A DNA stretch of 39,917 nucleotides from a virus: positions 1 through 39,917 of the IMG/VR virus record IMGVR_UViG_3300036399_000385; one strand, given 5' to 3'. Below the pieces are notes generated by a model. It saw nothing but the letters and a program-made list of their open reading frames with translations, had not been told where the DNA came from and ran no database searches. The translations under genes were made by a program, and so were the position numbers. The first letter of the stretch is position 1. The number at the start of each line of letters is the position of its first letter. Positions 4,925 through 33,994 of the stretch are shown here, in pieces.

Positions 4925-6562
4925 TTAAAGAGTCTCTAAACCATCAATTACGATTTTACCGTAGAATTCTGGTCTTACGATTTTCTTAGCGTAACGAGTC
5001 ATAACTCCTCTTCTTGGAGTGAAGTTAGTTGGGTCGTACACTAATGGAGTCATAATCAACGGAACGTATGGAGCGTAAACCGCACCTGTCTCGAAGAAGT
5101 TAGAACCTTTAAATCCTAATAAGATAACGTTCTCAGTCATATAAGGGTTTTTGTAAACATCGTATCTGTTTGAGATTTGTCCGATGTTAGTTACACCCGC
5201 TGCGAAAGTTAATGCATCTTTACCAGGGTTTGCAGAGAATCCGTTCATTGATTCTAAGATTGTAGCTACGTTAGGAGAAACAACAACGAAGTTTGCTCCA
5301 CCTCTCATAGTCAATTGGTGAATCTTGTTAGAGATTTTCTGTAATTTGATTCCTAAAGTCTGGAACCAAGTTGATTTTGTGTATGCTGAAGCTGCTGCTG
5401 CATTTGAATCAATTGTGAAAGCAGAACCATTCCAATCATATCCAACTCTTGCTGACCAATATTCAGAAGAGAATGCGTTTTGCTGCAACATCTCTAAGAT
5501 TTCTAAGTCAATCTCTAATGAGATATACTCAGATAACATTTGAGTTAATTCAGCTTCTGCATCTACAGAGTGGTAAGCGTTTAAGTCTTGCGCTAATTCT
5601 GGAGTCCAAATTGCTTTCAACTTACGAGTCTTAGCAACGATAGGCTCAGATTTCAATTCTAATTCGATTTCTGGGATTGCTAAAGCAGTTGGGTTATTAT
5701 AATCTGTACTTCTATCTTCGAAATCACCTCTTGAAATATCAGTTGGTTGTACGTGGTATGCTAATTCACCACCTACAGAAGTTGCACCTGCATAAGTACC
5801 AGCCGCATCAACTGCTGCTATAAATACTACGTTAGTACCATTTTTTACAGTAAATTGAGGATATAATGTATATCCAGAACCACTTTGTGCAAAATCAAAT
5901 GCTCTTACACCATTGAAATCAGCATCTGCTGGCAATGCTACAGTTAATTTTTTAACTTTACCTGCTGCGTAAGATGCAGAAACAGTTGAGTTAGATAAAT
6001 CAAATGAAATATCTGCTAAAGATGCAGATGCTAAAGTAGCTGCAGTTGCAACTGCAGTATCATTGATTGTGTATCCAAAACGACCTGCACCATACAAACC
6101 ACCTTCAGTAGCTTGAGTTGAACCTAATTTGTTTCCTGATGGAGATTGTGAATCTTTACCAAAAGTACCACCGTTACCAAACATAGAAGAACCAGAAGCT
6201 GGTCTATTTGCATCGTTAGCAGTACCATATTTAAAGTCCATATAGAAAATAAGACCTGATGGTAAGTTCATTGGTTGAACCGAAACGAATTCTTTCGCTG
6301 CGATAGAACCGAAGATACGACGTACCAATGGAAGAGCAACACCTGCCCACTCTTCTGAACCAGAAGAAGTACCTGTACGAGTTGCCTCGTCCAATAATTG
6401 CTTAGCTTGGTTTTCTAACATTACTGCCATACCATGCTTAGTTGTTTCAGAACCTACTCCTTCAAGTAATCCTGTTTTTTCCCACTTGCCTTTCAAACCT
6501 CTAGTTTGCTCAAGCATTACGCTCTGTGGGTTAGCACCTGTCATTAATTTTTTTAAGTTCAT
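4925..6562 (-). CDS. 23: Major capsid protein (T4 gp23-like)
   Basis: A 545-residue capsid subunit with clear gp23 hallmarks: M-L-E-N-Q near residue 48, V-Q-P-M-N-L-P-S-G-L-I-F (95-106), R-K-L-K-A-I-W-T-P-E-L-A-Q-D-L (313-327), and near the end Y-A-P-Y-V-P-L, F-T-P-R-R-G-V-M-T-R-Y and the closing V-I-D-G-L. In T4 the prohead protease removes about 65 N-terminal residues at an L/I-x-E site; here L-D-E|A at residues 57-60 sits at the matching place. Residues about 160-280 are an Ala/Gly/Ser-rich insertion-type domain. The leader (TTTAATTCAAAATG) has no Shine-Dalgarno sequence. It is co-oriented with the scaffold gene 20 bases upstream and is followed by a strong terminator. Confidence 0.95.
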   Translation of the reverse strand: MNLKKLMTGANPQSVMLEQTRGLKGKWEKTGLLEGVGSETTKHGMAVMLENQAKQLLDEATRTGTSSGSEEWAGVALPLVRRIFGSIAAKEFVSVQPMNLPSGLIFYMDFKYGTANDANRPASGSSMFGNGGTFGKDSQSPSGNKLGSTQATEGGLYGAGRFGYTINDTAVATAATLASASLADISFDLSNSTVSASYAAGKVKKLTVALPADADFNGVRAFDFAQSGSGYTLYPQFTVKNGTNVVFIAAVDAAGTYAGATSVGGELAYHVQPTDISRGDFEDRSTDYNNPTALAIPEIELELKSEPIVAKTRKLKAIWTPELAQDLNAYHSVDAEAELTQMLSEYISLEIDLEILEMLQQNAFSSEYWSARVGYDWNGSAFTIDSNAAAASAYTKSTWFQTLGIKLQKISNKIHQLTMRGGANFVVVSPNVATILESMNGFSANPGKDALTFAAGVTNIGQISNRYDVYKNPYMTENVILLGFKGSNFFETGAVYAPYVPLIMTPLVYDPTNFTPRRGVMTRYAKKIVRPEFYGKIVIDGLETL

Positions 6563-6582: not shown

Positions 6583-7902
6583 TTATTTAATAATACCAGC
6601 TAATTTTTTAAATCTGTTAGCTACTGCTACAGATTCAGAAATTACTTGCTTTTGAACCGATGGTTTTGTAGATTTAACTACTTTACTTGCGATTCCTTCT
6701 GCAATTGATTTCTTAGCAATTCTGTTTGATGAAGTGTATTTGAAATTCTCTGCTAATGTAGAGTAAACCAATTTAACTTCTCTTACTGATTTTGTTCTAT
6801 CCAAAGTTTCGATAACTTTAACTTTTTGTTCGTTAGTCATATTGTGAGCTCTGAACAATTTGTTAGCGAATAATAATTTTGCGTTTAACAAATTAACTTC
6901 GTTGATAGTTGATTGTAATGATTTGATAGTTTTGTAAGCTTCTTGTAAATCTGCTTTTAATTCTTCAGCATCTTCTTCTTCACCTTCTTCAACTTTATCT
7001 TTCAAATCATCTTCCATTTCACGAAGAATTTCTTCTAAGTCGATTACTTTCTCACCATCTGGGTCAGTACCAGCTTCAGCTCCGTCAGTATAATCTTCTT
7101 TCAATCTTCTACGTGATTCTCTTAATTTTTTAGATTCAGTTTTTGGTTCTTCTTCAGCCGGAGCTTCTTCATCACCTTCTAATTCAGCTAATTGTCTTCT
7201 TAATTCTGCAATTTGTGCTGCGTTAGGGTCTTCTTCTGCTGGAGCTTCTTCTTCAGAACCTTCTTCTTCACCTAATTGTGCTTCCAATTCTCTGATGATA
7301 GCTTCTAATCCCATTTCACCTTCTTCTTCATCTGCATATGGGTTTTCTTCTTCTTCGAAAGGATTTTCTTCTTCTTCACTACCTGTATTTGAGAATGGGT
7401 TTTCTTCTTCAGTAGCTGCAAAAGGATTTTCTTCTTCTTCACCACCTTCTCCTTCTAATTCTGCCAATCTAGCTCTTAATTCAGCTATTTCTCCAGCGTT
7501 AGGGTCTTCTTCTTCTTCACCACCGAAGTCATAATCATCTTCTTCGTTGATGTCTGCTACTTTTTCGTAGTCAGTTCCCGATTGTTCTGGTTTGCCACCA
7601 TCTTTAGTTACACCAACTGATAAATCAGTCATTGCAGTTAAAGTTGGTTGAGAACCCGGTGTCTCTGCTGCATCAGTTCCAACTTTAGAACCAATACCAG
7701 TAGAATCCAATTCTTCATTTGTAGCTTCTTGGTCATCATCCGCTTCCATTTCTTCAGCTTCTGCTCTCATCTTTTGAGATAAGATAGATTGTAATCTTGG
7801 AGTGAATGCTTCTTCAAGTGCTAACTTTGCGTTTGCTAATGCAGTTTCCTTTACGGCTTTAGCATCGGCGATTGCTTCTTTTAACAATTTTGAGTTTGCC
7901 AT
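6583..7902 (-). CDS. 22: Prohead scaffold / core protein (gp22-like)
   Basis: A 439-residue, very acidic, helical protein directly upstream of the capsid gene, the place of T4 gene 22. gp22 forms the assembly core and is degraded by the prohead protease. The N-terminal helix (1-50) and C-terminal segment (about 310-439, with N-L-L-N-A-K-L-L-F-A-N-K-L-F-R) look like the folded, capsid-contacting parts. Between them lies a low-complexity Glu-rich tract with two coiled-coil repeats and four E-N-P-F/Y motifs. L-K-E|A (7-10) and L-E-E|A near residue 30 fit the protease consensus. It is longer than T4 gp22 (269 residues), mainly because of the acidic tract. Confidence 0.85.
   Translation of the reverse strand: MANSKLLKEAIADAKAVKETALANAKLALEEAFTPRLQSILSQKMRAEAEEMEADDDQEATNEELDSTGIGSKVGTDAAETPGSQPTLTAMTDLSVGVTKDGGKPEQSGTDYEKVADINEEDDYDFGGEEEEDPNAGEIAELRARLAELEGEGGEEEENPFAATEEENPFSNTGSEEEENPFEEEENPYADEEEGEMGLEAIIRELEAQLGEEEGSEEEAPAEEDPNAAQIAELRRQLAELEGDEEAPAEEEPKTESKKLRESRRRLKEDYTDGAEAGTDPDGEKVIDLEEILREMEDDLKDKVEEGEEEDAEELKADLQEAYKTIKSLQSTINEVNLLNAKLLFANKLFRAHNMTNEQKVKVIETLDRTKSVREVKLVYSTLAENFKYTSSNRIAKKSIAEGIASKVVKSTKPSVQKQVISESVAVANRFKKLAGIIK
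7174..7506 (-). repeat. Coiled-coil duplication and ENPF repeats in the scaffold
   Basis: Two 19-residue copies start with DPNA and contain I-A-E-L-R-x-x-L-A-E-L-E-G (residues 133-151, bases 7450-7506; residues 225-243, bases 7174-7230). Between them four E-N-P-F/Y motifs occur at residues 158, 167, 179 and 186 (bases 7333-7434), separated by acidic spacers. This is a recent internal duplication or expansion in a disordered region. Confidence 0.8.
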
Positions 7903-8016
7903 TTATTTTTTTATGATTTACTTGTGAAGTTATTGAATACAACTCCAATGATATTCTGCTGATTGTTCGGTCACGCCTTATAAGGAAGGGTATTCATTAA
8001 TCAACTATAAAAAGTA
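7903..8016 (-). promoter_or_regulatory. Leader and presumed promoter region of scaffold-capsid genes
   Basis: This is the longest non-coding stretch (7903-8127 including two hairpins). Between the second hairpin and the scaffold start, the minus strand holds about 110 bases that are clearly less AT-rich than the other gaps, including a perfect CCTTATAAGG palindrome (7976-7985). The scaffold and capsid genes need high expression, so their promoter probably lies here, but I see no exact TATATTTATA copy. No tRNA fold was evident. Confidence 0.4.
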
Positions 8017-8035
8017 ATCCCATAATGAATGGGAT
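8009..8035 (-). terminator. Second hairpin of a tandem terminator
   Basis: ATCCCAT (8017-8023) pairs with ATGGGAT (8029-8035) around a five-base loop. On the minus strand a run of five T follows after three bases. It lies 39 bases beyond the stronger hairpin at 8077-8098, so it may be a back-up terminator. Confidence 0.5.
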
Positions 8036-8073: not shown

Positions 8074-8098
8074 AAAAATCCCAAATTTCTTTGGGATT
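8074..8098 (-). terminator. Intrinsic terminator after the Dps-like gene
   Basis: AATCCCAAA (8077-8085) pairs with TTTGGGATT (8090-8098), a 9-bp perfect stem with a 4-base loop. On the minus strand the stem runs into TTTTTC. It lies 30 bases past the stop codon of the Dps-like gene and separates it from the scaffold gene. Confidence 0.75.
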
Positions 8099-8127: not shown

Positions 8128-8499
8128 TTATTGGTGATTTACCAATTTGTATTTAGTTTTATATAATAAAGATACAACCGTATCAATATCATTTTGTATC
8201 CAACTATCTTGTAATTTAGGATTTGTTCTTAGTTTTGCAACTAAATTACATAAAGTTTCAAAATAATTAATTATATTTTTAATATCATTATTTTTATCTA
8301 ATGTTCCAATTCCTGAAATTTGTATTAAACCCTCTTTACCTTGATATGCTTCAACTATTCCATCTATTAAACCACCAATAGAATCATAGTATTCACCCAA
8401 TGCAACGTGTGCAGAGTGCGAACCTATACCTTTAACTCCCCAATGAAAAGAATGTGCTTGAGTTCTACTTTGTAATAATAATGATGCTAACTCTTCCAT
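8128..8499 (-). CDS. Dps-like mini-ferritin
   Basis: A 123-residue four-helix ferritin-like protein. H19 (in F-H-W), H31, D46 and E50 have spacings of 12, 15 and 4 residues, exactly those of the Dps ferroxidase ligands (H51, H63, D78, E82 in E. coli Dps), and the F-H-W-x-V-K-G context is typical of Dps. It is shorter than cellular Dps (about 160 residues), with a clipped first helix and no basic DNA-binding tail. Family knowledge suggests iron or peroxide chemistry and possibly DNA protection; I infer either a virion protein or a protectant made late in infection. It lies inside the head-gene block behind its own promoter-like element and is followed by tandem terminators. Related phage proteins are often annotated only as domains of unknown function. 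Confidence 0.8.
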   Translation of the reverse strand: MEELASLLLQSRTQAHSFHWGVKGIGSHSAHVALGEYYDSIGGLIDGIVEAYQGKEGLIQISGIGTLDKNNDIKNIINYFETLCNLVAKLRTNPKLQDSWIQNDIDTVVSLLYKTKYKLVNHQ

Positions 8500-8513: not shown

Positions 8514-9842
8514 CTAATAAATATAGAAAAAGTTAAAAAACTTATCAGATATTAACTTTTGACGAATTCTTTCCTTTGAACAATTGAAATATTTAGATGC
8601 TTCACTTAATGAATAAAATTGCAAACCATCGCATTCTATTATTGGTAAAGTAATACGAATTGTATTATTCCACATTTGTTCCATCTCATCATATGTAATA
8701 TCTACATTAGATATTTTTTTCCAATGTCTGTATAATGGGTTAGTTGAATTTAGATATTGTCTGGCTTCAGATTCTGTAATTTCCCCTTTTAGAACTTCTG
8801 AAATTTGTTTTGGTGATTCAAAATAGACACCATCAACTTCGTATTTAATATTTGGATTTGTTTCTTCTCCAATTATTTGCCATTCTTTATATTTTGATTT
8901 AGTTGAACAACACATTCTCTGAACATCACTTGCTACCAATTCACTTGGATTAATTGAAATTGCAGCTTCTCTAAATGATTTGTATTTTTTCCCATCCACT
9001 ATACATTTGTAAGTACCATCCCATTCAATATCTTCCGTTGCTAAATCAGGATTTCCTTTTACAAATACCAATATGTTTTGATGAACGGATGCCACCTTAC
9101 GATTACGATTAAAATATGTATCTACAATTCTAGACGCAGTATGTTGTGAATTAAATAAAATCATATCGTTATAAAAATTTAATCCATTTTTTTCACATAT
9201 ATCAATCGTTTTGTGAACCAATCCTTTATATTTTCCAATTTTATAATTTCTGGTTTTAGATTGCTCTCTTACTTCAGATACAACTATTGCGAAAAATCTA
9301 TTGTTTTTTAACTTTTTTGCAGCTTTACTTAATATACTGAAATACTTTTCATCAAAAGCATCATCTTCCATAGTCGATATATCCAACGGATTATCACTAT
9401 AAACTTCTAAGTCATAATAAGGTGGGCAAGTAAATACAAAATCATATTGTTCATCGTTAAGTGAGTTTAATACAACATCACTATCACCTATCATCCAAAT
9501 TGGTTTAGTTGATTGTAATCTATTTGCTTTAACTTGTTCCTCTGATAAATCTATTCCATTGTATTGAAATCCCATTTCGGTTGCTACAATACCTCTAACA
9601 CTTCCACCTGCAAACGGGTCTAATATCTTACCTTCCTTTGGAGTAAACCATTTGTACATATATTCACAAAGGGTTGCATCAAATATTGAGACATTCGTTT
9701 CTTCTATATCCCAAAATTTACTTTTTGAAATAGTACCTTCTCTACCTAATTCTGATTTAATTTTGTAAGTATTTGTCCACCATCGTTTACGGTCTTGCCA
9801 CTCTTTGGTACGAGTATCTAAAATTGAAAATGGTTTTATCAT
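8514..9842 (-). CDS. DNA methyltransferase with three homing-nuclease-type DNA-binding modules
   Basis: 442 residues. The SAM-binding motif D-P-F-A-G-G-S lies at 75-81 and the catalytic motif T-C-P-P-Y-Y-D at 138-144, as in amino-methyltransferases (N6-adenine or N4-cytosine). After the catalytic domain come three degenerate repeats (about 278-325, 333-378, 402-440) with the pattern V/C-D-G-x-x-x-x-S-x-x-x-A/I ... R-x-x-x-x-S ... W/F. They resemble the NUMOD/IENR helix-turn-helix modules of homing endonucleases, so they may set target choice. I start it at the ATG at 9842; an earlier in-frame ATG at 9881 lies inside a terminator hairpin. No partner restriction enzyme is nearby. It is probably an orphan modification gene that moved into the head block. 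Confidence 0.85.
   Translation of the reverse strand: MIKPFSILDTRTKEWQDRKRWWTNTYKIKSELGREGTISKSKFWDIEETNVSIFDATLCEYMYKWFTPKEGKILDPFAGGSVRGIVATEMGFQYNGIDLSEEQVKANRLQSTKPIWMIGDSDVVLNSLNDEQYDFVFTCPPYYDLEVYSDNPLDISTMEDDAFDEKYFSILSKAAKKLKNNRFFAIVVSEVREQSKTRNYKIGKYKGLVHKTIDICEKNGLNFYNDMILFNSQHTASRIVDTYFNRNRKVASVHQNILVFVKGNPDLATEDIEWDGTYKCIVDGKKYKSFREAAISINPSELVASDVQRMCCSTKSKYKEWQIIGEETNPNIKYEVDGVYFESPKQISEVLKGEITESEARQYLNSTNPLYRHWKKISNVDITYDEMEQMWNNTIRITLPIIECDGLQFYSLSEASKYFNCSKERIRQKLISDKFFNFFYIY
8516..8525 (-). promoter_or_regulatory. Variant of the recurrent element before the Dps-like gene
   Basis: The minus strand reads TATATTTATT, one base off the consensus, 16 bases before the Dps-like start. 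It overlaps the stop codon of the methyltransferase gene. Confidence 0.4.
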
Positions 9843-9848
9843 AGTAAC

Positions 9849-9858
9849 CGTAAATATA
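9849..9858 (-). promoter_or_regulatory. Variant of the recurrent element before the methyltransferase
   Basis: The minus strand reads TATATTTACG, directly behind the terminator at 9861-9887 and six bases before the chosen methyltransferase start. The layout is the same as at the fibre gene: terminator, element, start. Confidence 0.45.
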
Positions 9859-9860
9859 CA

Positions 9861-9887
9861 AAAAAAGCTTGGAATTACCAAGCTTTT
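9861..9887 (-). terminator. Intrinsic terminator after the 240-residue gene
   Basis: AAAAGCTTGG (9863-9872) and CCAAGCTTTT (9878-9887) form a perfect 10-bp stem with a five-base loop. T runs flank it on both strands, so it may be bidirectional. It ends the transcript of the gene at 9911-10633. Confidence 0.85.
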
Positions 9888-9910: not shown

Positions 9911-10633
9911 TTATGAAAAGTTAGGGTCTAACTCATCATCTTTACCCATATTAGAATAGTATCTTTCTTCCATATCTAACATACTAAGTAAGTTTTTTTG
10001 TTGGGATGTGATTTGTGATGTTATTGCTTGAATTGGTTTTAACATTTCTTCTTTCTTTTTAGGGTCAGTTTCCGCATTAAATTTTCTAGCATAATCTCCA
10101 CCATATTTAGATTTTCTTTCATCAGTTAATTCTTTTATTTTCTTTTTAACTGCTTCAATTTTTAAATAAAGTTTTGGAACTCTACTACCTACTTCCATTA
10201 TAGGAGTTTTGCAAGTTTTACATTCTCTCAATCCCAGTCTACTTTTCATTACATCTTCTGATACATCTGCGATTTCAAAGTATCTTCCTAAAACGTGCCC
10301 CATATCTTCATATAGAGATTCTAGTCTTTGTTCTTGTGCCTTCGCTTCCAATGATTCTTTTTCGAATGCAGATTGTAATTTTTTCAATTCACTCATATTA
10401 CGTTTAATAGTAACTCTATCAAACCAATCACCACCTTCTCTCAAAGTATATTCTTGTGCTGCATCTGCAATACCACCCAAAGTTTCAGCAACTTGTCTGA
10501 TGTCAGATTTTCTAGTCATTCCTTCTCTATGTTGTCCATAGGTAGAAATAATTTCTAAAAAGTGTCTTTTTAATTCAGTTGGGAGTTGTTGAAACTCTTC
10601 TGATTCTTTTAGTAAATCTTTTAAACGTATCAT
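9911..10633 (-). CDS. Helical head-core candidate with a targeting-type N-terminus
   Basis: A 240-residue, largely helical, charged protein of unknown family. The N-terminus (M-I-R-L-K-D-L-L-K-E|S) looks like the short capsid-targeting peptides of T4 internal proteins, with L-K-E as a possible prohead-protease site. Near residue 137 a C-K-T-C motif occurs; with no second pair it is not a clear zinc finger. Coiled-coil-like stretches lie at about 75-115 and 150-220. It is the last gene of its transcript and lies two bases after an 86-residue helical gene. I infer an internal or core head protein from the leader and location only. Confidence 0.7.
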   Translation of the reverse strand: MIRLKDLLKESEEFQQLPTELKRHFLEIISTYGQHREGMTRKSDIRQVAETLGGIADAAQEYTLREGGDWFDRVTIKRNMSELKKLQSAFEKESLEAKAQEQRLESLYEDMGHVLGRYFEIADVSEDVMKSRLGLRECKTCKTPIMEVGSRVPKLYLKIEAVKKKIKELTDERKSKYGGDYARKFNAETDPKKKEEMLKPIQAITSQITSQQKNLLSMLDMEERYYSNMGKDDELDPNFS

Positions 10634-12618: not shown

Positions 12619-13209
12619 TTAGTTTAATTCTATTAATATTTCTCTCATTAAATCTTGTGCTTTACACCATTTACCACACTCATCTGCAATCTTCTTCCAT
12701 TGTTTGGATTCGTTTACAGGTGCCATAAATGCTCCATGTGTAGATGGGTTTGAAACAAAATCCCAACCTACTAATTCAAAATCTTCCTGAACCATTACCG
12801 TACCATCTCTTAATTCTTTTACAGAACCCAATCCTCTTGATGAAATACCTAAACGGATATTGTTTTTTAATAATTCTTTTAAGATGTTACCCGATGGTGT
12901 AGAGAGGATTTCAACAGTTCCACAAACATCATCACCTTCCCAATAGATTTCTCTAACGTTGTGTGATACATTCTTTAAGTTGATAACCGGAGAATCTGGA
13001 TGGTCTAATTCACCTAATGCTCTTCTTTCGTTAATAAGTTGTTGGTATTTTTTACACTCTCTTTCAAGAATTTCTCTTGGGTATCTTCTACCATTTTGGT
13101 TTTCAGCACCTGCTCTTTGCAAAACACCTTTAACAAGTAAAGTACCGTTAGATTCTTCTTGTATTTTTGCTTCAAACAAATGAGTTTCTATCAATAATCC
13201 TTTGCTCAT
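12619..13209 (-). CDS. 21: Prohead maturation protease (gp21-like)
   Basis: A 196-residue serine protease of the T4 gp21/herpesvirus-assemblin type, which cleaves scaffold, capsid and internal proteins after (I/L)-x-E during head maturation. The N-G-R-R-Y-P motif (39-44), catalytic H70 in G-E-L-D-H-P and catalytic S123 or S124 in G-I-S-S-R-G-L-G-S are all present, and W-D-F-V-S-N-P-S-T (149-157) matches the family's C-terminal block. V-N-E|S at 165-168 could be a self-cleavage site. It overlaps the upstream core gene by one base (TAATG). Unlike T4, the scaffold gene does not follow directly; five genes intervene. Confidence 0.93.
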   Translation of the reverse strand: MSKGLLIETHLFEAKIQEESNGTLLVKGVLQRAGAENQNGRRYPREILERECKKYQQLINERRALGELDHPDSPVINLKNVSHNVREIYWEGDDVCGTVEILSTPSGNILKELLKNNIRLGISSRGLGSVKELRDGTVMVQEDFELVGWDFVSNPSTHGAFMAPVNESKQWKKIADECGKWCKAQDLMREILIELN

Positions 13210-20894: not shown

Positions 20895-23800
20895 TTAGTA
20901 AAAAATACCTAAAATCTGATTTAATGGTGCAAAAGTTCCTGTAAGTTTATAAGTGTTTCCTTTATAAATGAATACAATACCCTCATTTGGAACAATTTTT
21001 TCTAATCCACCAATTGATTGTAATCTTGCTAATTCTTGTTTTAATTTGGCAATTTTAGTTATATCTCCACTACCTCTTACTTTATCAGCAGTATCTTTTA
21101 ATCTTTGTTTCATACTAGCAACTGCTGCATTTGGATTTGCAGTTAATACCGAATCCATAAATGATAATACATCTGCTCCAACTCCTAAGAATATCTCCTC
21201 AAATGGTCTGATATTATCTTTTTGTTGTTTTGCCACATTTACTTTATCATTATCTATTGCCCACTTTTGAGCGTCTTTATCAGTAATGGTATTTAAACGG
21301 AATGATTTATCACCAAATGCCCATCTGTTAATCAAAGCATCTCTTTCTAACTTTTGTAATTTAACTTTACTCTTATCTATAAAATTTGCCCACCAAGCTT
21401 GATGATATTCAGCAACACCATCCTTATTACTTAATTGAAATTCAAATTGTAATTTTTGTAATTGTGTTAAATATTTAGTTTGTTTAGAACCTAATTCTTC
21501 ATTTTTGGGTAATTGAGTTACTGGTGGTCCTTGAATTGTATATTTAGATTGAACATCTGCATTTACTTGCTTAATCATCCCTGCTAACATAGTTGCTGCT
21601 CCTTGATTTGAACCAACCGCAACACCATTTTCACCATAACAAGTTGTGTTGTGGAATACCAATAATGGTTGTCCATAAGGTATTACATTTACCGATGTAG
21701 GCCAGATAACTTCCAAGTTCATAAAACATTTACCCTCATCGAAAATCTTCTTTCTCTGTGGTTCTGATAATCCACTAATTGCCGCAGTTAAATCTCTCAT
21801 AGCAAAGTTATAAGCATCGGTTAATCCACCTCTACCACCAAACTTTGATGCAACATCTTCAATACCCATTGCGTTTGCTCCTGCATTTGCCAAATGTCCT
21901 TTGTTTCTTGCTGCAATTAATCTACCATTTTTCCAACTAATTGCGAGAGCTTGTCCATCGGTTTTTTCTCTTGTCAATTCTAAATTACCAGTTAATGCTC
22001 CTGTAATAATATTCTTTAAATCACCAAAAGTTAAATCCATATCATCAAACGGGTGAGACATATGTCCGTATGCACCACCCTCTGATATTACAGATTTGTT
22101 TACCGATTCATTTATAACTTGCCCACCATTGTTGTTGATAAAGTTTTCAATATCAGCCTCATTCTTTGCAACTTCTACATTTTTGTATTTTTGCTTTACT
22201 TGGTTTATTTGTTTTTCGGTATCTTCGGCATCATCTCTATCAAATGTCCAACTTCCAATTTGCGTTTTGGTTTTTACAAGTGATGGAATAACTAAAATCT
22301 TTTCAATTTTTATATTAGTAAGAACTACTTCATTCCAATCCGATTCATAATATAATGTGTTAGCATTTGAATATCTATCCACAAATTCTTTTTTCTTACT
22401 CAACATAAATTTTTCAGCTGCTTCAAAATATTTTTTTATGAATTCAGCTTTTTCTGCATTTGAAGTTGTTCCATCAAAATATTCTTTCTGATATTTTTCT
22501 TTGTATGGTTTTAATTCAGGTGCAAAATTATAAACTTGGTCTCTTTCTCTATTTGGATTTCCAAACATAGCACCTGGCTCAATCCATCTTCTACCTTGCT
22601 TATCAGGATAAGTCCACAAATCGTGAATACTTTGTGCTAATACAGTTCCTGTCATTGATACAATCACACCACCCTTTGTCCACAATCCTTTACCTTGTGC
22701 AATTTTGCCAGTTTTTGTAGTTTTATTGAATGTGGAAATTGATTTTTTAGTTCCTTCTAATGCTGCTACTTTTGATAAATTATCAATATCTGTTATATGC
22801 AATGATTTTGCAACTATTGGGTCTACCAATTTTTTAACGATATTTAATGATAATGGAACTTCACCATGCAAACATTTATCAAACACTTCACTTTCCCATT
22901 TAAGTCCTTCGTTTAAAGATTCTTTTAAACTTCTTTTTTTAAGAATTATTTGTTGAATTTGTGAAAATATAGATTGTATATCTTTATCCAATTGCTTTTC
23001 ATCTGCACTCATTGGTGATTCAATATCAACATTAGAGTATAGTTTTTTCTTTTTAGCAATTAAAACATCTACCTTTTTAATTAAGTCGTTTCTTACTTTA
23101 TCCAAATCTTTTATGATTTCAGATGGAGTTTCTTCGTTTACGATTGTAGGAGATGTTGTTTGAAAATTACCTTTTCTCATTACAGTTTTAGCAATAACTT
23201 TATTTGCCATTTTTACAAATGGAATGTTGATATTACTTCTATCGTCTTTAACTACGATTTGATTGTACTTTTCTAAAAAATCTAAAAATTGTTTTTTATG
23301 ACGTGTTAATCTTTTAAAAAAACCAGTTAGTTCTGGTTCTGATATTTCTTTACCATTACGAGTATCATTTACTCTATCAAAAAAATGATTACTAAATTCA
23401 ATATCAGCAGGTTCTAATTCTCTATCTGCATATCTTTCAACACTATCTAAATTAGATTGTGTTAATTTTTCATTTAACTTTTTTTTTTCAATATATTCAG
23501 ATAATCTCAATTTATCGGTAATATCAGTTACCTCTTCATAATCGGTATCTCTTAATTGAACTACTATATCTCTTCTACTAGCATTTGGGTCATTGCAAAC
23601 TGCTACTCCAATTTTCTTTTTACCAAATGAATTAGATTTATCGTACAACTTCATAATTGCTTTAAAATGCCAATCGTTTGTTGTTACTTCTTTTAAACCT
23701 AAATCATCACCTACATCTGTTATATCTCTATATCCAAAATTTCTTAATTCTTTTGCAATATCGTTTCTATCTGCATTTGGGTCTTTACAAACAGCTGCTC

Positions 23801-26525
23801 CAATTTTCTTTTTGCCAAATGAACTTGCATTATCCCACATTTTCATAATTGCTTTGAAACGCCAATCATTTGAGCCGACTTCATTAAATACCGATTGTGG
23901 ATTTGGTTTTTCTTCTTCTCCTCTTGGTATTCTAAATGTAGCTGCTTTTTTACCATTAATTGTTGGCATCCCATGGTCATCAGTTCCAATATCTTTAACA
24001 GTAGTTCTTTTGTTTTTAAACTTACCCATTAAAACGGTATCACCTTTATCAACATCTATAGTAATTACTTCGTTATAAATTGTTTTGTTTAATTTACCGT
24101 ATTCTCTTAATAAGATTGCTGCTATTGAATTTGCTTTGTTTTCAACTTCCGAACCAGTTGCCCCATCTTTTACTGAATCACCAATCAATCCCATTTCATC
24201 TTGCTTTCTATGAACCATTTCATGAGCAATAGTTCTTAAAATATCAGCAGTTAATCTACCTTCAGTTGCTACAAATATTTCTTTAGAATCAACATTATAT
24301 CCACCTAATGAATGGTTTTGTCTTGAAAACTCAGGGTCTTCTACCAATGTAATTTTAGGAGTTTCTTTTAAATTTAATCTTTTGGTTGCATATTCTACAA
24401 AATGATTTACGTTTTCTCTTTTTGATGGAGAAACTGCTTCATTCATTGAACCAACTATTTTATTTAAACTATTTTTTTGTTTGGTTTCTGCATATGATTT
24501 TAACATTTCCAAATATTGTTTTGGATTTGGTTCAAATGTTTGCATTTTTTCCAAAGTTTGTTTTAACAATTCAGTAAATGCACTTGCGTTTTGATTGGTA
24601 TCATTTTCTTCATATAAATTTTCTCCAACAAGTCCTGCACCTAATGCCAAATTTCCCGCTTGTTTATGTCCAGAACCTGCTGCCATAAATACGGATTCTT
24701 TAAAACAATGTTTTCCAAAATCAACTGCCATATGATGTAAAAACCCAAGTGCACCCTCCCCAAATGTAGATGCTGCACCTTTTACAACTTCACCACCTGC
24801 TCCACTTACTCCTTTACCCGCTAAATATGCACTTTTACCTGCCGTAAATGCTCCCGTTAATACAACTGCCGCTGCGGTTATTGCAATATCTTTACCAGTA
24901 GCCCAAAATGCCTTTTTTTGTCTTACTCTTTCACTTTCACTTTGTTTCCATGTTCCATCCCTATCTTTAAACCATCCAAATTCAGGTTTACCACCATTCA
25001 TTGTAGATAATGCTAATGATTTAACACCTCTAACAGTATTTTTTACTTGATGAACTTTTTGTTTTGCAACTTTTAAAGCATAATTTGCTATATTTGCTGG
25101 CATTTTTGCTATAAAATCAGTAGCAGTTTCTGTCCAATTTTTTCTAATTTTAGAATTAGGGTCATGCCCTTCATTGGCAGCTTCTACCTCATCATCATCT
25201 AAAAATGTATTAATAGTATTTCCAATTTCTTTAATTTCTTCTTTAAATTTATCTCCCCATTTTGCAAAGATACCGTTATTATTACCATCATTTTTCTTTT
25301 CAGCTGATGATTTTAATTCATCTCCACTTAACGTTTGTGAAACTTCTGGTTCTGCTCCTTGTGATGGGGATGTTGTAGATTGCCCTTTGGTTGCATCTAC
25401 TTTTCCTTGTTGTGTTTGCCCTTGCTTAACTGGTTGTCCAGGTTCAGATGGTTTTGCCGATTGAGTTGCCGCTTTTCCTTGTTGTGGTAATTTTTTAGGT
25501 TCGTTTGCCGGTGCATCTGCTGGTCCTTTTGCCATTGTAGATGATTTATCAGTACCAACCATTTTAGAAGCTTGAACGTGTGCAGGATGGTCTTTTGCCA
25601 ATCTTAAAGCACTCTTAACTTTAATTTTCTTCTTACTTCCATCTGCCGCAGTATAATCAAACTCTTTATCCATTATAGGATTAGGAGCTTCATTAAAATA
25701 TTTTTTAGTAAATTCATTAAAAACTTCTTCTGCAACAAATCTATCTATTATATGTCCAATTGGGTCATATAAACTTTCATTCTTATACCAATCTGGTTCG
25801 TCCGATGGATGTTCTATTTGGTGTCTTGTTGGCTTTGGTTCAGGTCTTAATGCAGAAGATGGTTCTGTGTTATTTGATTCGTTTGCAGAACCTGTTGGTG
25901 CTCCATTAATATATCCACCTGGAAGATTCAATCCTGTTCCGATTCCTCCTGGAAAACCATCTTCGTTTAATTTGTTTGTTATCATTTTAAAAATATCTGC
26001 ATTGAACTTTGGATATGCTTTTAAGAATCCTTTCTTTTTAGATTCATCATCTCCACTACCTAACCAATTACGAACATCCGTTCCACTAATTGGGTTTGAT
26101 TCGGCAGGAACTGCATATGTATATCCTATCTCATCATATCCATATCCAGTTTTACCTTTATATGGTTTAAAGTATTTACCACTTAATCTACTTTCATCTT
26201 TTTCCCCAACTGCTGCAATATAAGCAGTAGTTTTTCCATCAAAACTTTGTAATATTTCTTTGGGAGCATATGGATTTGATACTTGTATAAACTTATCAGA
26301 TGGAACATTAAACATTTTGGTTGCTATTTCCTTCTTTTCTTTAAAATCAAATGGAGATTTTGGACCAGATGTACTATTAGATGTTGCAATATATACATTA
26401 TCCTTACCAAACTTTTTAGCAAGTTTTAGATAGGATACATAGTGTCCAGCATGAAATGGTTGGAAACGTCCTGAATATACTACAACTAAATCCGTTACTT
26501 CCGGCTTATCTACTTCTAATTTCAT
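20895..26525 (-). CDS. Giant multi-enzyme virion polyprotein candidate
   Basis: 1876 residues, the largest gene here. In order: HxGH nucleotidyltransferase of the NMN-adenylyltransferase type (about 10-175; H25-A-G-H28, I-S-G-T-D-V-R 146-152); a phage module near 240-325; a Gln/Pro/Thr-rich linker (340-400); a glycine-rich, partly hydrophobic region (540-640); a zinc metalloprotease-like domain (H-E-M-V-H, 768-772); a 64-residue tandem repeat (883-1010); a module near 1040-1125 (F-S-N-H-F-F-D-R-V-N-D) known from other phages; an unassigned domain (1207-1465); and a ligase-type nucleotidyltransferase (K1521-T-D-G, E1605, E-G-I-V 1848-1851, K1860). Sites ending N-E, K-E or S-E after a hydrophobic residue mark most borders (188, 271, 279, 696, 819, 882, 946, 1019, 1131, 1206, 1473, 1482). 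This suggests cleavage by the prohead protease and ejection with DNA. That role is inference. Confidence 0.8.
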   Translation of the reverse strand: MKLEVDKPEVTDLVVVYSGRFQPFHAGHYVSYLKLAKKFGKDNVYIATSNSTSGPKSPFDFKEKKEIATKMFNVPSDKFIQVSNPYAPKEILQSFDGKTTAYIAAVGEKDESRLSGKYFKPYKGKTGYGYDEIGYTYAVPAESNPISGTDVRNWLGSGDDESKKKGFLKAYPKFNADIFKMITNKLNEDGFPGGIGTGLNLPGGYINGAPTGSANESNNTEPSSALRPEPKPTRHQIEHPSDEPDWYKNESLYDPIGHIIDRFVAEEVFNEFTKKYFNEAPNPIMDKEFDYTAADGSKKKIKVKSALRLAKDHPAHVQASKMVGTDKSSTMAKGPADAPANEPKKLPQQGKAATQSAKPSEPGQPVKQGQTQQGKVDATKGQSTTSPSQGAEPEVSQTLSGDELKSSAEKKNDGNNNGIFAKWGDKFKEEIKEIGNTINTFLDDDEVEAANEGHDPNSKIRKNWTETATDFIAKMPANIANYALKVAKQKVHQVKNTVRGVKSLALSTMNGGKPEFGWFKDRDGTWKQSESERVRQKKAFWATGKDIAITAAAVVLTGAFTAGKSAYLAGKGVSGAGGEVVKGAASTFGEGALGFLHHMAVDFGKHCFKESVFMAAGSGHKQAGNLALGAGLVGENLYEENDTNQNASAFTELLKQTLEKMQTFEPNPKQYLEMLKSYAETKQKNSLNKIVGSMNEAVSPSKRENVNHFVEYATKRLNLKETPKITLVEDPEFSRQNHSLGGYNVDSKEIFVATEGRLTADILRTIAHEMVHRKQDEMGLIGDSVKDGATGSEVENKANSIAAILLREYGKLNKTIYNEVITIDVDKGDTVLMGKFKNKRTTVKDIGTDDHGMPTINGKKAATFRIPRGEEEKPNPQSVFNEVGSNDWRFKAIMKMWDNASSFGKKKIGAAVCKDPNADRNDIAKELRNFGYRDITDVGDDLGLKEVTTNDWHFKAIMKLYDKSNSFGKKKIGVAVCNDPNASRRDIVVQLRDTDYEEVTDITDKLRLSEYIEKKKLNEKLTQSNLDSVERYADRELEPADIEFSNHFFDRVNDTRNGKEISEPELTGFFKRLTRHKKQFLDFLEKYNQIVVKDDRSNINIPFVKMANKVIAKTVMRKGNFQTTSPTIVNEETPSEIIKDLDKVRNDLIKKVDVLIAKKKKLYSNVDIESPMSADEKQLDKDIQSIFSQIQQIILKKRSLKESLNEGLKWESEVFDKCLHGEVPLSLNIVKKLVDPIVAKSLHITDIDNLSKVAALEGTKKSISTFNKTTKTGKIAQGKGLWTKGGVIVSMTGTVLAQSIHDLWTYPDKQGRRWIEPGAMFGNPNRERDQVYNFAPELKPYKEKYQKEYFDGTTSNAEKAEFIKKYFEAAEKFMLSKKKEFVDRYSNANTLYYESDWNEVVLTNIKIEKILVIPSLVKTKTQIGSWTFDRDDAEDTEKQINQVKQKYKNVEVAKNEADIENFINNNGGQVINESVNKSVISEGGAYGHMSHPFDDMDLTFGDLKNIITGALTGNLELTREKTDGQALAISWKNGRLIAARNKGHLANAGANAMGIEDVASKFGGRGGLTDAYNFAMRDLTAAISGLSEPQRKKIFDEGKCFMNLEVIWPTSVNVIPYGQPLLVFHNTTCYGENGVAVGSNQGAATMLAGMIKQVNADVQSKYTIQGPPVTQLPKNEELGSKQTKYLTQLQKLQFEFQLSNKDGVAEYHQAWWANFIDKSKVKLQKLERDALINRWAFGDKSFRLNTITDKDAQKWAIDNDKVNVAKQQKDNIRPFEEIFLGVGADVLSFMDSVLTANPNAAVASMKQRLKDTADKVRGSGDITKIAKLKQELARLQSIGGLEKIVPNEGIVFIYKGNTYKLTGTFAPLNQILGIFY
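23496..23879 (-). repeat. Tandem 64-residue repeat inside the giant protein
   Basis: Residues 883-946 and 947-1010 are two copies with a constant 64-residue period (W888 and W952 align). Each contains N-D-W-x-F-K-A-I-M-K, S-F-G-K-K-K-I-G and D-P-N-A, and each is preceded by a hydrophobic-x-E|V site (F-N-E|V, L-K-E|V). DNA copies are diverged, so the duplication is old. No known family was recognised. Confidence 0.85.
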
Positions 26526-26741: not shown

Positions 26742-27713
26742 ATGAAGATATTAATTACAGGTGGAGCCGGATATTTAGGTTCTGTTATAGTTGGTAGAAT
26801 GTTACAAGAAGGACATTCCGTTATAGTTTTAGATAAACTACTATTCAATCAAACTTCTTTATTACAATACACTCATCATTCTGAGTTTAAATTTATCTAC
26901 GGAGATGTTCGTAATGAAAAACTATTGGAAAGACTCTGTAATCAAGCAGATGTGATTATTCCATTAGCAGCAATTGTAGGATTTCCCGCTTGTGATGCCG
27001 AACCTCAATTGGCAAAAGAATTAAATTTAATTCAAATTCAAAACATAGTAAAATTTACAAAAGATAAAGGTAAAAAGATTTTATATCCAAACACAAATAG
27101 TGGATATGGAATTGCAGAAGGTGAAACAGAATGTACTGAAAAATCCCCATTAAATCCAATATCTATTTATGGTTCTACTAAAGTTGAAGCAGAAAACTTC
27201 TTAAAAGAACACACAGATGCAATTATTTTTAGATTAGCAACTGTATTTGGAGTATCACCTCGTATGAGAACTGATTTATTGGTAAATGATTTTACTTATA
27301 AAGCAATTACTGATAAATACATTGTAGTATTTGAGAAAAACTTTAAAAGAAACTTTATTCATATAGAAGATGTAGCAAATGCTTTCTTATTTATGTTACA
27401 CAACTACGATGCATACAAAGGTGAAGTATTTAATGTTGGTTTAAGTGATTCGAATTTAAATAAACAACAATTATTGGAAAAAATAAAATTACAAGTTCCA
27501 AAATTCGCAATAGTTTATGATGATTATTACGAAGACCCCGATAAAAGAGATTACATAGTTTCTAATGCCAAAATTGAAGCAACAGGTTGGAAACCAACTT
27601 GGAGTTTGGATGATGGTATTGAACAACTTATAGAAGCATATCAAATGATAGTTCCAAGAATGGGAGCAGAATTTAGAAACGGATTCCCATTAGGTTACGC
27701 AAACAATACATAA
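26742..27713 (+). CDS. NAD-dependent sugar epimerase/dehydratase
   Basis: A 323-residue extended short-chain dehydrogenase acting on nucleotide sugars. G-G-A-G-Y-L-G (7-13) binds the dinucleotide, N-S-G-Y-G (119-123) is the serine region, and Y143-G-S-T-K147 is the catalytic Y-x-x-x-K. Substrate-side blocks include F-R-L-A-T-V-F-G-V-S-P-R-M-R and N-F-I-H-I-E-D-V-A. It is the first gene of the plus-strand operon, with an A/T-rich leader and no Shine-Dalgarno sequence. The overall pattern fits NDP-sugar 4-epimerases or dehydratases; the exact substrate cannot be read. It overall resembles the other two such enzymes here only distantly. Confidence 0.88.
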   Translation: MKILITGGAGYLGSVIVGRMLQEGHSVIVLDKLLFNQTSLLQYTHHSEFKFIYGDVRNEKLLERLCNQADVIIPLAAIVGFPACDAEPQLAKELNLIQIQNIVKFTKDKGKKILYPNTNSGYGIAEGETECTEKSPLNPISIYGSTKVEAENFLKEHTDAIIFRLATVFGVSPRMRTDLLVNDFTYKAITDKYIVVFEKNFKRNFIHIEDVANAFLFMLHNYDAYKGEVFNVGLSDSNLNKQQLLEKIKLQVPKFAIVYDDYYEDPDKRDYIVSNAKIEATGWKPTWSLDDGIEQLIEAYQMIVPRMGAEFRNGFPLGYANNT

Positions 27714-27714
27714 T

Positions 27715-28251
27715 ATGAGTTCAAATTGGAAAGAGTTCGAAGTAACTCCATCAAAAAAATTCGGAAACGAAGTAGAAATATACACTCCATCTATTTACAG
27801 AGAATATAGAGGAGAAATATTTACAACATTTCATTCAGAGGAACATCCTGTAATGTTAAAACTTACACCATATGTTTCAGTACATGGTAGATTTTCAAAA
27901 TCATACAAAGGTGTATTAAGAGGATTACATTACGATACTAAAACTTGGAAATTAGTTCAAGCAGCAGTCGGTGATATATACCTCATTGTTTTGGATGTAA
28001 GAGAAGATTCTCCTACCTATGGAGATTGGGAATCATTCATTATATCTGAACGTAACAGACAACAAGTATTAGTTCCTCCTGGGTTTGCAAATGGTCACTA
28101 TGCACTTACTGATTGTATGTTTCATTATAATTTATTTTATGATGGTCAATATGTAGATGCAAATGAGCAAGGTGTTGTTAAATGGAATGACCCGGAATTT
28201 CAAATGGAATGGCCAACAGATAAACCAATATTACAAAAAAGAGACAGATGA
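27715..28251 (+). CDS. rfbC: dTDP-sugar 3,5-epimerase (RmlC-type)
   Basis: A 178-residue cupin epimerase of the RmlC family, which inverts C3 and C5 of dTDP-4-keto-6-deoxyglucose on the way to rhamnose and related deoxysugars. V-L-R-G-L-H72-Y carries the catalytic His; V-G-D-I-Y-L-I-V-L-D-V-R, V-P-P-G-F-A-N-G-H and V-K-W-N-D-P (Asp159) are the other family blocks. The length is normal. It follows the epimerase gene by one base, and its TGA overlaps the next ATG (ATGA). No RmlA or RmlB is visible, so the substrate may come from the host or from genes outside the window. Confidence 0.85.
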   Translation: MSSNWKEFEVTPSKKFGNEVEIYTPSIYREYRGEIFTTFHSEEHPVMLKLTPYVSVHGRFSKSYKGVLRGLHYDTKTWKLVQAAVGDIYLIVLDVREDSPTYGDWESFIISERNRQQVLVPPGFANGHYALTDCMFHYNLFYDGQYVDANEQGVVKWNDPEFQMEWPTDKPILQKRDR

Positions 28252-28877
28252 TAAAAAACATAGAAAATTTCCCAATTGTTAAGGAATCATTGTGGGATAA
28301 AGATGGATTGATTGATTTTGAAAGAAGAATAGCAGATGCATGGGAAGGTGGTAACATAAGAGGTCCAATACATTTAAGTGGTGGAAATGAAGAACAAATT
28401 ATTGAAATAGGAAAAAGAATTAAATCAACCGATTGGGTATTTAGTACATGGCGTTCTCATTATCACGCATTAGTTAAAGGTGTTGATTCGAAATGGTTAG
28501 AAGATGAAATTCTTGCTGGTAGAAGTATCACTATTGTAAATAAAGAAGAAAAGTTTTATTCATCTGCAATCGTTGGTGGAACAATCTCAATTGCAATGGG
28601 TGTTGCTATGGCAAATAAAAGAAATGGTTCTACAGATAAAGTTTGGTGTTTTGTAGGAGATATGGCATTTGAAACAGGTGCTTTTATGGAAAATTACAAA
28701 TATGCAAAAAACTTTGATTTACCAATTACATTTGTTGTAGAAGATAATGGTGTTTCAACTTATACGCCAACAGTTGAAACTTGGAATGTTAAAAGTGAAA
28801 TTCCAAATGATGTTATTTGGTATGAATACGAAAAAGTTTGGCCTCACTATGGTACTGGAAAATGGGTGGTATTTTAA
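28248..28877 (+). CDS. Thiamine-diphosphate enzyme, alpha (E1-alpha-like) half
   Basis: A 209-residue protein like the alpha subunit of 2-oxoacid dehydrogenase E1 or the N-terminal half of transketolase. R-S-H-Y-H-A-L-V-K-G (69-78) matches the family's substrate-channel His block. G137-D-M-A ... E-D-N167 is the thiamine-diphosphate/Mg motif (G-D-x ... N about 30 residues apart). It is shorter than cellular E1-alpha (about 330-370), so it is a minimal form. The matching beta half is at 33995-34543, five kilobases downstream after four other genes. With sugar enzymes around, it may transfer a two-carbon unit in sugar synthesis; that is inferred. Confidence 0.85.
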   Translation: MIKNIENFPIVKESLWDKDGLIDFERRIADAWEGGNIRGPIHLSGGNEEQIIEIGKRIKSTDWVFSTWRSHYHALVKGVDSKWLEDEILAGRSITIVNKEEKFYSSAIVGGTISIAMGVAMANKRNGSTDKVWCFVGDMAFETGAFMENYKYAKNFDLPITFVVEDNGVSTYTPTVETWNVKSEIPNDVIWYEYEKVWPHYGTGKWVVF

Positions 28878-30118
28878 ATTTAGTTTTTGATAAATGGGAT
28901 ACCGATGGTAAACCGATGGCTAATTTATCAGAGATAAATGAACACATTGGGGGAGAATATATTATTGATTTGCATTTATTATTAAATTTACCGAATCCTT
29001 TAATTTCAATTAATAAATGTAATTTATCAGATGTACAGTTGGGTGAAAACTATTATTATATGATTTCACACAGATGTTCGTTTGAAAGTATGTTCAATTC
29101 GGATGGTTGGGCAATAAATAAAGATGTTGAAGAATGTATTAAAAACAAAAATTTAAAAATTGTATTTTTAAGTGAGCATGAAAGTTATAAAGATTTAAAA
29201 AAATCATTAACAAATCTTATTACATTATTAGATAAAAAACAATTAAATCATAATCAATTTTATATTGTAAATAATAACTCATTATTATATGATTTAAAAA
29301 AAGAATTAAATACAGATATAAATGTTTATAAAATAAATTTTTTATTAGAATCGGTTAGTGATTCTATAACAATAAAAACTGGACAATCTCAAATTGAAAC
29401 TAATAAAAAATTTATATTTTTATGTCAAAATAGAAGACCAAAAAACCATAGATTGGCATTATTAACATTATTAAAAAATAAAAATTTATTAAAAGATGAT
29501 ATTATAGATTGGTCACTAACATATGGTTCAATGAATCAACCTATGTCAGAACTTACAAAATATCAATTTTATATTGATTTTAATAATTTACAATTATTCA
29601 ATGATTACAAAGAAATTTGCTCAAACACAAAATTAAGTTTATATGAAAAAGATGTAGATTGGTGGGAGTCTGAAAATAAATATCATCCTTGGAATCATTT
29701 AGATTTACAAACATTTAACCAAAGTTATATAAATATTACAACGGAATCTCACTTTGATATTGAAGATATACACATAACTGAAAAAACATTTAAACCGTTT
29801 TATTATTTTCAGATGCCTTTATTTTTAGCATCACATCATCATATTAATAAATTAAAGCAAGAACATGATTTATATCTATTTGATGATTTAATAGACCATT
29901 CATATGATAATCAAAAAAATGATAAAGTTAGAATGAATATGGTTGTAGATGAAGTAAATAGATTATCCAATATGAGAAATGATATTGAAAAGTACTATAA
30001 ATCAAACATTGATAAATTAATTCATAATCACAAATATATTAGAGATTTTTATTTAAAAAATGAAACTAATTTATATTTTTTAAATTTAACAAAAACACAA
30101 TCTTTAAATTTAATATGA
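28862..30118 (+). CDS. Glycosyltransferase-like protein with a TEK-type motif
   Basis: 418 residues from the ATG at 28862, which overlaps the upstream gene by 16 bases; an ATG at 28838 in the same frame is less likely. The C-terminal third has I-T-T-E-S-H-F-D and then H-I-T-E-K-T-F-K-P (T306 onward), followed by a hydrophobic strand and D-L-Y-L-F-D-D-L-I-D-H-S-Y-D. This pattern (T-E-S ... T-E-K ... K-P) recalls the nucleotide-sugar domain of GT10 and exostosin-type transferases and recurs in two other genes of this window. F-L-C-Q-N-R-R-P-K-N-H-R marks the start of the fold. Base composition is markedly more AT-rich than the preceding genes. The function as a glycosyltransferase is likely, the substrate unknown. 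Confidence 0.72.
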   Translation: MGGILNLVFDKWDTDGKPMANLSEINEHIGGEYIIDLHLLLNLPNPLISINKCNLSDVQLGENYYYMISHRCSFESMFNSDGWAINKDVEECIKNKNLKIVFLSEHESYKDLKKSLTNLITLLDKKQLNHNQFYIVNNNSLLYDLKKELNTDINVYKINFLLESVSDSITIKTGQSQIETNKKFIFLCQNRRPKNHRLALLTLLKNKNLLKDDIIDWSLTYGSMNQPMSELTKYQFYIDFNNLQLFNDYKEICSNTKLSLYEKDVDWWESENKYHPWNHLDLQTFNQSYINITTESHFDIEDIHITEKTFKPFYYFQMPLFLASHHHINKLKQEHDLYLFDDLIDHSYDNQKNDKVRMNMVVDEVNRLSNMRNDIEKYYKSNIDKLIHNHKYIRDFYLKNETNLYFLNLTKTQSLNLI

Positions 30119-32247: not shown

Positions 32248-33017
32248 TGTTACACGCTTATGGTGATAGTTGGACGGAAGGACAGGGATGTAATAGAATA
32301 GTTGAAGATTTATTATCTAAAGAAGAAAGACCGGCATATCGTAAAGAAAATAGTTGGGTTAAATTTTTAGCAGACAAATTGAATATCCCTTTTATAAATA
32401 ATGGAGTTAGTGGAAATGCTAATAACAAAATATTCAATCAAATTGTTTCTGATATTCAATCTGAAAAAATAAAAAGTGATGATTTTGTTACCATAATGTG
32501 GAGCTCTTCTTTAAGAGATTATGTTCCTTTTTTACCAGATGGTGAATGGGTCACTTGGTCTGTTAAACATTTAATTGAAGAACCACATAAATTTATAAAT
32601 TCTTATAATAGTACCAATACGTTATACGATTCTTTTTTTACTGAATATAAAGAATTTTTTATAGGAGAAATGTTTAATCAGAATTATTATAATATAGTAA
32701 ATCAAAATTACATAATTTTTATCCAAAAACTATTTAAGCATTATAATATAAATTATATAATGTGTGATAGTTTTGAAAGTATGTTAATTAATTTGGATAA
32801 AAAGGATAATATTACACATTTAATAGATAATTCAAAATATTGGGAATTTAATAAACAAACATTCAGAGATTATTTAAATAAAGAAAAAAGATTAGATATT
32901 TGGGAAAATCAAGATGAACAATTTGAAACAAGAGCATCACAACATCCAAATTTAGAAGGTTATAAATTAATAAGTAAAGAGTTATACGGTTACATAAAAA
33001 ACAATAAAATATTATGA
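32244..33017 (+). CDS. SGNH/GDSL-type hydrolase
   Basis: 257 residues. Block I is Y-G7-D-S9-W-T-E-G, with the nucleophile Ser; the block II/III region is N-G-V-S-G-N-A-N-N (53-61); block V is S-Q-H-P-N-L-E-G-Y near residue 233, with the catalytic His. Such enzymes remove or transfer acyl groups on sugars and other esters. No signal peptide is present, so it acts in the cytoplasm or in the virion. It is coupled by ATGA overlaps to the fusion gene before it and the epimerase after it, consistent with glycan acyl modification. Three diverged relatives lie at 35359-39366. Confidence 0.78.
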   Translation: MMLHAYGDSWTEGQGCNRIVEDLLSKEERPAYRKENSWVKFLADKLNIPFINNGVSGNANNKIFNQIVSDIQSEKIKSDDFVTIMWSSSLRDYVPFLPDGEWVTWSVKHLIEEPHKFINSYNSTNTLYDSFFTEYKEFFIGEMFNQNYYNIVNQNYIIFIQKLFKHYNINYIMCDSFESMLINLDKKDNITHLIDNSKYWEFNKQTFRDYLNKEKRLDIWENQDEQFETRASQHPNLEGYKLISKELYGYIKNNKIL

Positions 33018-33991: not shown

Positions 33992-33994
33992 TAT

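Follow-up and report, generated by a model that had tools for sequence, protein, structure and literature searches.

A Dps-like member of the phage DUF5856 family encoded in the head gene block of a T4-like freshwater phage

Introduction

Phages that carry their own Dps or ferritin proteins are already known from 'Gratiaviridae' and other groups (PMC8008677), and Dps is encoded by Lactobacillus phages (PMC6669764) and by a Campylobacter phage (PMC2853527). In freshwater phages, ferritin has been listed among the genes for defence against reactive oxygen species (PMC6802176). These classical Dps proteins, together with those of Streptomyces phages, are phage-borne like the protein described in this work. 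The Streptomyces phage Dps that we tested have a ligand set equal to that of our protein, but they are recognised by Pfam Ferritin and are closer to bacterial Dps than the family studied here, DUF5856, is; one of them matches Ferritin strongly and DUF5856 weakly. Phage YerA41 was considered as a further case of a phage Dps and set aside, since the match is to the dps of its host and not to a phage gene.

DUF5856, which corresponds to phrog_858, is annotated either as a family of unknown function or as a transcriptional regulator. Its members T4 rI.-1, RB49 rI.-1, Kuttervirus CBA120 orf108 and LIMEstone1 ORF78 are similar in length to our protein and share with it the same four ligands. Our literature search found no paper joining DUF5856 or T4 rI.-1 with Dps, with ferritin or with a complete ligand set. 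Here, we describe a member of this family from a T4-like freshwater phage. The window, as we call the whole stretch of DNA analysed, is a virus record of 39,917 bases in which a major head protein, a head maturation protease, a portal and a large terminase can be recognised. A sequence-only reading of this DNA had proposed a Dps-like protein with a complete set of metal ligands, made together with the capsid and perhaps acting in the virion.

Results

The Dps-like ORF at 8128-8499 is confirmed as a genuine gene, which starts with ATG and is translated into 123 residues (Table 1). Its place in the head block is as previously proposed, flanked to one side by the scaffold and major capsid genes and to the other by those for protease, portal and terminase. 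The downstream neighbour was assigned as a gp22-like scaffold from its position and composition, and a PHROG search with it gave no confident match. Between the Dps-like gene and this scaffold gene stand two terminator-like hairpins, followed by a structured leader RNA. A strict terminator scan recovered a hairpin comparable to the one directly 3' of the gene in just 16 of 79 relatives, and no argument for the whole lineage can be built on it. A T4-type late promoter (TATAAATA) was looked for upstream of the Dps-like gene and was not found. The methyltransferase encoded upstream has an extra C-terminal part made of repeated homing-endonuclease-like units (NUMOD-like, by eye), and it is confined to the window, a near-identical contig and a few relatives. 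Elsewhere in the window, a block of nucleotide-sugar epimerase/dehydratase-like genes and related sugar genes adjoins the structural genes at 26742-34543 on the plus strand (translations read by eye), and an ORF of 1876 aa at 20895-26525 on the minus strand has an N-terminus that reads as nucleotidyltransferase-like; the part of it that was tested matched PHROG only weakly.

Table 1. Features of the Dps-like gene, of its surroundings in the window and of the ferritin replacement in related loci.
Feature	Positions or loci	Strand	Basis or remark
DUF5856/phrog_858 Dps-like protein, 123 aa	8128..8499	-	ORF, profile matches, AlphaFold2 model
H19 codon, matches H51 of E. coli Dps	8443..8445	-	structure and profile alignment
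H31 codon, matches H63 of E. coli Dps	8407..8409	-	structure and profile alignment
D46 codon, matches D78 of E. coli Dps	8362..8364	-	structure and profile alignment
E50 codon, matches E82 of E. coli Dps	8350..8352	-	structure and profile alignment
Terminator-like hairpin, directly 3' of Dps-like gene	8077..8098	-	hairpin scan
Second terminator-like hairpin	8017..8035	-	hairpin scan
Conserved structured leader RNA of scaffold gene; marks slot boundary	7900..8016	-	covariation analysis
gp22-like prohead scaffold/core gene, downstream neighbour	6583..7902	-	position and acidic composition
Major head protein	4925..6562	-	phrog_138
DNA methyltransferase gene, in slot upstream of Dps-like gene	8514..9881	-	rare among relatives
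Conserved head-block gene of unknown function; upstream slot border	9911..10633	-	synteny in relatives
Head maturation protease	12619..13209	-	phrog_207
FtnA-type ferritin in place of Dps-like gene	L223, L234, L247-L258		slot comparison; L257 keeps both

The leader RNA is present in the window and in the loci L001-L393, 58-73 nt upstream of the start codon of the gp22-like scaffold gene. It has three helices, with changes on both sides in 10 of 21 pairs and 98.7% of cells paired, and none of 500 shuffles and none of the slid controls reached its pairing, both-side changes or covariation score. Where the downstream sequence could be read in a scan of viral contigs, nearly all copies stood ahead of the scaffold gene. 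A search against Rfam gave no match, and the element has the appearance of a cis-regulatory head-gene leader not described before.

Against the profile of DUF5856 (PF19174) the window protein scored 49.5 bits, above the cut-off of 34.6, and it matched phrog_858 at 3.5e-16; against Pfam Ferritin (PF00210) it scored 14.7 bits, below the cut-off of 24.5. The relatives behaved alike, with 53 of 53 matching DUF5856 and only 4 of 53 matching Pfam Ferritin at E<=1, and an NCBIfam search with the window protein gave no meaningful match. In sequence searches of the PDB, Dps and HP-NAP chains ranked first (phmmer E 3e-4, profile E 1e-4). Comparison by hhalign with a profile of six Dps, the phage letters being taken from records, aligned residues 1-54 with a probability of 85% and an E-value of 7e-6. 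Both this alignment and the structure match described below, at an offset of 32, place H19, H31, D46 and E50 on the E. coli Dps ferroxidase ligands H51, H63, D78 and E82. The site of the 24-mer ferritins FtnA and Bfr (E..ExxH..E..Q/E) was also looked for, and the 123 residues contain no ExxH, unlike the ferritins that we found in the same genomic slot of related phages.

AlphaFold2, run with 53 relatives, predicted a four-helix bundle (residues 2-21, 27-56, 73-91 and 99-121) with a pLDDT of 96.5 and a pTM of 0.89, and the modelled fold is a ferritin-like bundle of Dps topology. The top solved matches in Foldseek were almost all Dps, reaching a TM of 0.79 on the query with a best E-value of only 6e-3, and VIA superposed the model on E. 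coli Dps (6gcm) with a Z of 13.5 and an rmsd of 2.3 A over 121 residues, model residue 1 falling on chain residue 33. Helical bundles match easily and a Z near 13 may arise among them by chance, so the fold match was weighed jointly with the sequence and the ligands. The claim of a Dps-like fold with a complete ligand set was supported. A further fold search returned three viral BFVD entries named 'Prohead protease' (A0A6J7WPK9, A0A6J7XDU5 and A0A6J7WIS1; 333-763 aa) with a Dps-like part, which may be fusions joining a Dps domain to a head protease.

The likeness to Dps and HP-NAP lies in the predicted fold and in four ligands at equal places and with equal spacing. However, the window protein has 123 residues against about 142-175 in the solved matches, it has no DNA-binding tail, and the additional Dps ligand D67 of E. 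coli is replaced by G35. No BC helix was seen in loop 57-72 of the AlphaFold2 monomer, which is a model and not a structure. In Dps, the BC helix sits at the two-fold interface, and the lack of one in the modelled monomer means that the oligomer interface may differ from that of Dps. We file the protein under DUF5856 and not under Dps, as a short, phage-borne branch of the ferritin superfamily that probably functions like Dps; it is placed outside Dps because the model has no BC helix and the Pfam Ferritin cut-off was missed.

The spacing of 12-15-4 between H19, H31, D46 and E50 is present as first read from the sequence, and the pattern H-x11-H-x14-D-x3-E occurs only in this ORF among the 116 six-frame segments of at least 60 aa in the window. 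Loss of the ligands in relatives, which the sequence-only reading had named as the observation that would speak against it, was looked for and none was seen. The four ligands never vary in 81 close loci, and they are invariant in 34 representatives below 60% identity and in 131 distinct relatives, a set in which H31 is not independent evidence because many of its proteins were fetched with a pattern that contains H31. In 19 diverged members, 22-37% identical to the window protein and chosen largely by tblastn from T4, RB49, Kuttervirus, Limestonevirus, jumbo phages, podoviruses and Caulobacter phages, the only five invariant columns are H19, H31, D46, E50 and L119; the chance of four named columns falling among five of 123 is about 5e-7. 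When a set included both T4 rI.-1 and a classical Streptomyces phage Dps, the invariant columns were the four ligands only. The median dN/dS among 78 close relatives was about 0.07, with synonymous changes dominating. As far as these alignments tell, the ligands are what selection retains. A chance motif was ruled out by the invariance in the 131 relatives and the 19 diverged members, and a degenerate gene was considered and rejected. Among the 131 distinct proteins, N103 and D106 are also nearly invariant, and our guess is that these two positions might border a pore for iron entry, where Dps has acidic residues.

The conservation of the ligands bears on the possibility that the family has a ferritin fold without iron chemistry or acts, as its database name says, in the regulation of transcription. 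It is true that phrog_858 and many RefSeq phage records are named 'starvation-inducible transcriptional regulator', but exactly the four ferroxidase ligands are invariant where nearly everything else varies, no DNA-binding domain was found, and the window protein has a pI of about 6.2 and no basic N-terminal tail. A transcription regulator was rejected on account of the missing DNA-binding domain and the invariant ligands, the name itself looks like a garbled Dps annotation, and we consider this whole explanation very improbable.

The Dps-like reading also draws on the position of the gene in related phages. In close relatives with enough sequence, the gene is always flanked by the conserved head-block gene and the scaffold gene. 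A second, independent sample was fetched via the protease gene, and the Dps-like gene occupied this slot at 36 of its 40 loci, a count that, like the others given here, does not represent independent lineages, since several IMG/VR loci are near-identical or come from one contig fetched twice. Two of the four loci without it (L223 and L234) hold a ferritin of 177 aa in the slot, and the other two (L210 and L242) have no iron protein there. This ferritin is of the FtnA type (PF00210, 3.8e-17; H. pylori-type ferritin in the PDB, 4.5e-11), and a search with it found 12 loci of the lineage with a ferritin in the slot, with L257 having the Dps-like gene and the ferritin adjacent to each other. Residues E34, E67, H70, E110 and Q142, which correspond to the ligands of the A/B iron site, are kept in 46 of 47 slot ferritins, the remaining row being gapped. 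The slot ferritins differ from the window protein in length, family and their intra-subunit ferroxidase site, and there is no position-for-position homology between the two.

A third sample, fetched via the leader RNA (n=69), contained 51 Dps-like loci and 3 ferritin loci, and 4 of 15 loci without a Dps-like gene in the slot carry one elsewhere on the contig. In other loci the slot also takes unrelated genes, coding for bS21 or a methyltransferase. A small bS21-like gene stands directly before the scaffold leader RNA in L242, L295, L314, L332, L356, L360, L362, L372 and L384, the L242 copy being called by PF01165 (6e-14) and the others by eye. Judging from how often Dps-like, ferritin, bS21 and methyltransferase genes occupy it, the slot is accessory, with a strong preference for iron-storage proteins. 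Because both occupy this one slot, the ferritin and the Dps-like gene probably serve the same need.

Beyond this lineage, T4 rI.-1 as a query matched 1,403 phage records and the Kuttervirus protein matched 1,438 of 50,697. With one sequence pattern we retrieved at least 567 relatives from IMG/VR but only 5 from a GTDB set of 84,980 prokaryote species with one genome each, and DUF5856 is therefore largely phage-borne. Its neighbours in other phages include rI/tk, primase, endolysin and portal genes; members of the window lineage lie in the head block, whereas those of T4 phages lie beside rI. T4 rI.-1 (mobD.6; L406, T4 58819-59205), an accessory lysis-inhibition gene that also bears the RefSeq name 'starvation-inducible transcriptional regulator', matches PF19174 with 114.5 bits (5e-33), has all four ligands and shares an operon with rI, which raises the question of whether the main job of the family is the timing of lysis, the protein modulating lysis inhibition and its metal site serving as a redox or iron sensor. 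According to PMC6832632, a review that covers Golec et al. (2010), overexpression of rI.-1 prolonged lysis inhibition, and the members of Caulobacter phages adjoin an endolysin gene. However, the effect relayed there is slight and comes from overexpression, RaK2 has an rI.-1 homologue without rI, rIII or t (PMC3622015), and no lysis gene adjoins the Dps-like gene in the window lineage. A role mainly in lysis timing is, in our view, improbable.

Whether the protein is carried in the virion was addressed with published proteomes. LIMEstone1 ORF78 was found in purified virions with 3 peptides and 28% coverage and was listed as a 'confirmed structural protein' (PMC3296691), and Sajous1 gp217 gave 10 spectra in CsCl-purified particles and was called 'Ferritin' by Phyre2 (PMC10892097). 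Our searches identified both of these Ackermannviridae proteins as DUF5856 members with all four ligands, ORF78 (L411) having 117 aa and 13,149 Da (13.15 kDa) and gp217 being L409. The gene product could then be mainly a virion protein, made late and enclosed in or attached to the particle, where it would protect packaged DNA or, along with the genome, deliver iron or the ability to oxidise it. Consistent with this, a late promoter is annotated just upstream of LIMEstone1 ORF78, the gene of the window lineage stays beside the scaffold and capsid genes, and members in other phages abut portal or terminase-portal genes. On the other hand, the authors of the Sajous1 study noted that low spectral counts may reflect cell debris, and they found no dependence on host tonB or feoB (PMC10892097). 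The members of T4, RB49 and Caulobacter phages lie near lysis, tk or endolysin genes, hairpins and the leader RNA part the window gene from the scaffold gene, and the slot accepts non-structural genes. As an account of the main role of the protein, we regard this as possible but on the unlikely side.

The two remaining claims of the earlier reading fared unevenly. That the product is made with the capsid agrees with the stable place of the gene in the head block, but the hairpins and leader RNA, the accessory nature of the slot and the different contexts elsewhere weigh against it. A virion role has support in the detection of relatives from Ackermannviridae and not beyond them. The window protein may plausibly be carried in the virion, although the slot also takes bS21 and methyltransferase genes and hairpins separate the gene from the scaffold gene. 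More broadly, that DUF5856 as a whole is a phage-specific mini-ferritin family, carried inside virions or on their surface and either loaded with iron or able to oxidise it, is a tentative and rather doubtful suggestion; if true, the ferritin swap in the slot would make iron handling a regular element of particle assembly or of early infection.

Discussion

Our results indicate that the gene quite probably encodes a short phage protein of the ferritin superfamily, belonging to DUF5856 and Dps-like in action, which would oxidise Fe(II) and shield phage DNA. This reading builds on what we document here, namely the predicted fold, the positions and invariance of the ligands, the purifying selection, the head-block synteny and the replacement by ferritin. 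We infer an oligomer in which at least two subunits would join, so that H19 and H31 of one chain and D46 and E50 of another form a di-iron site. Such a site would oxidise Fe(II), most likely using H2O2, and the oxidised iron could be stored if a cage forms. The physiological benefit would be that free iron and peroxide are kept from phage DNA, and thus from Fenton damage, late in the infected cell and possibly inside the particle.

Several observations stand against the Dps-like reading. The Foldseek E-values are modest for a fold class that matches easily, and the score against Pfam Ferritin is below the cut-off. The position of D67 is a glycine, the modelled loop has no BC helix, and two loci have no iron protein in the slot. 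The exchange of a Dps-like gene for a ferritin gene in one slot argues, independently and on genetic grounds, that iron handling is what selection favours.

The idea of a 'Ferrojan horse', in which iron is carried in phage particles, has been proposed mainly for tail fibres. Our analysis proposes a concrete function for a widespread phage family, which is present in about 1,440 phage records and has T4 rI.-1 among its members, and it puts DUF5856 forward as a candidate iron protein in phages that are well established in the laboratory. It also ties to this family relatives that published virion proteomes had left as 'unknown structural protein' or hypothetical. With these proteins at hand, it becomes possible to test directly whether iron chemistry plays a part in phage infection and perhaps in virions.
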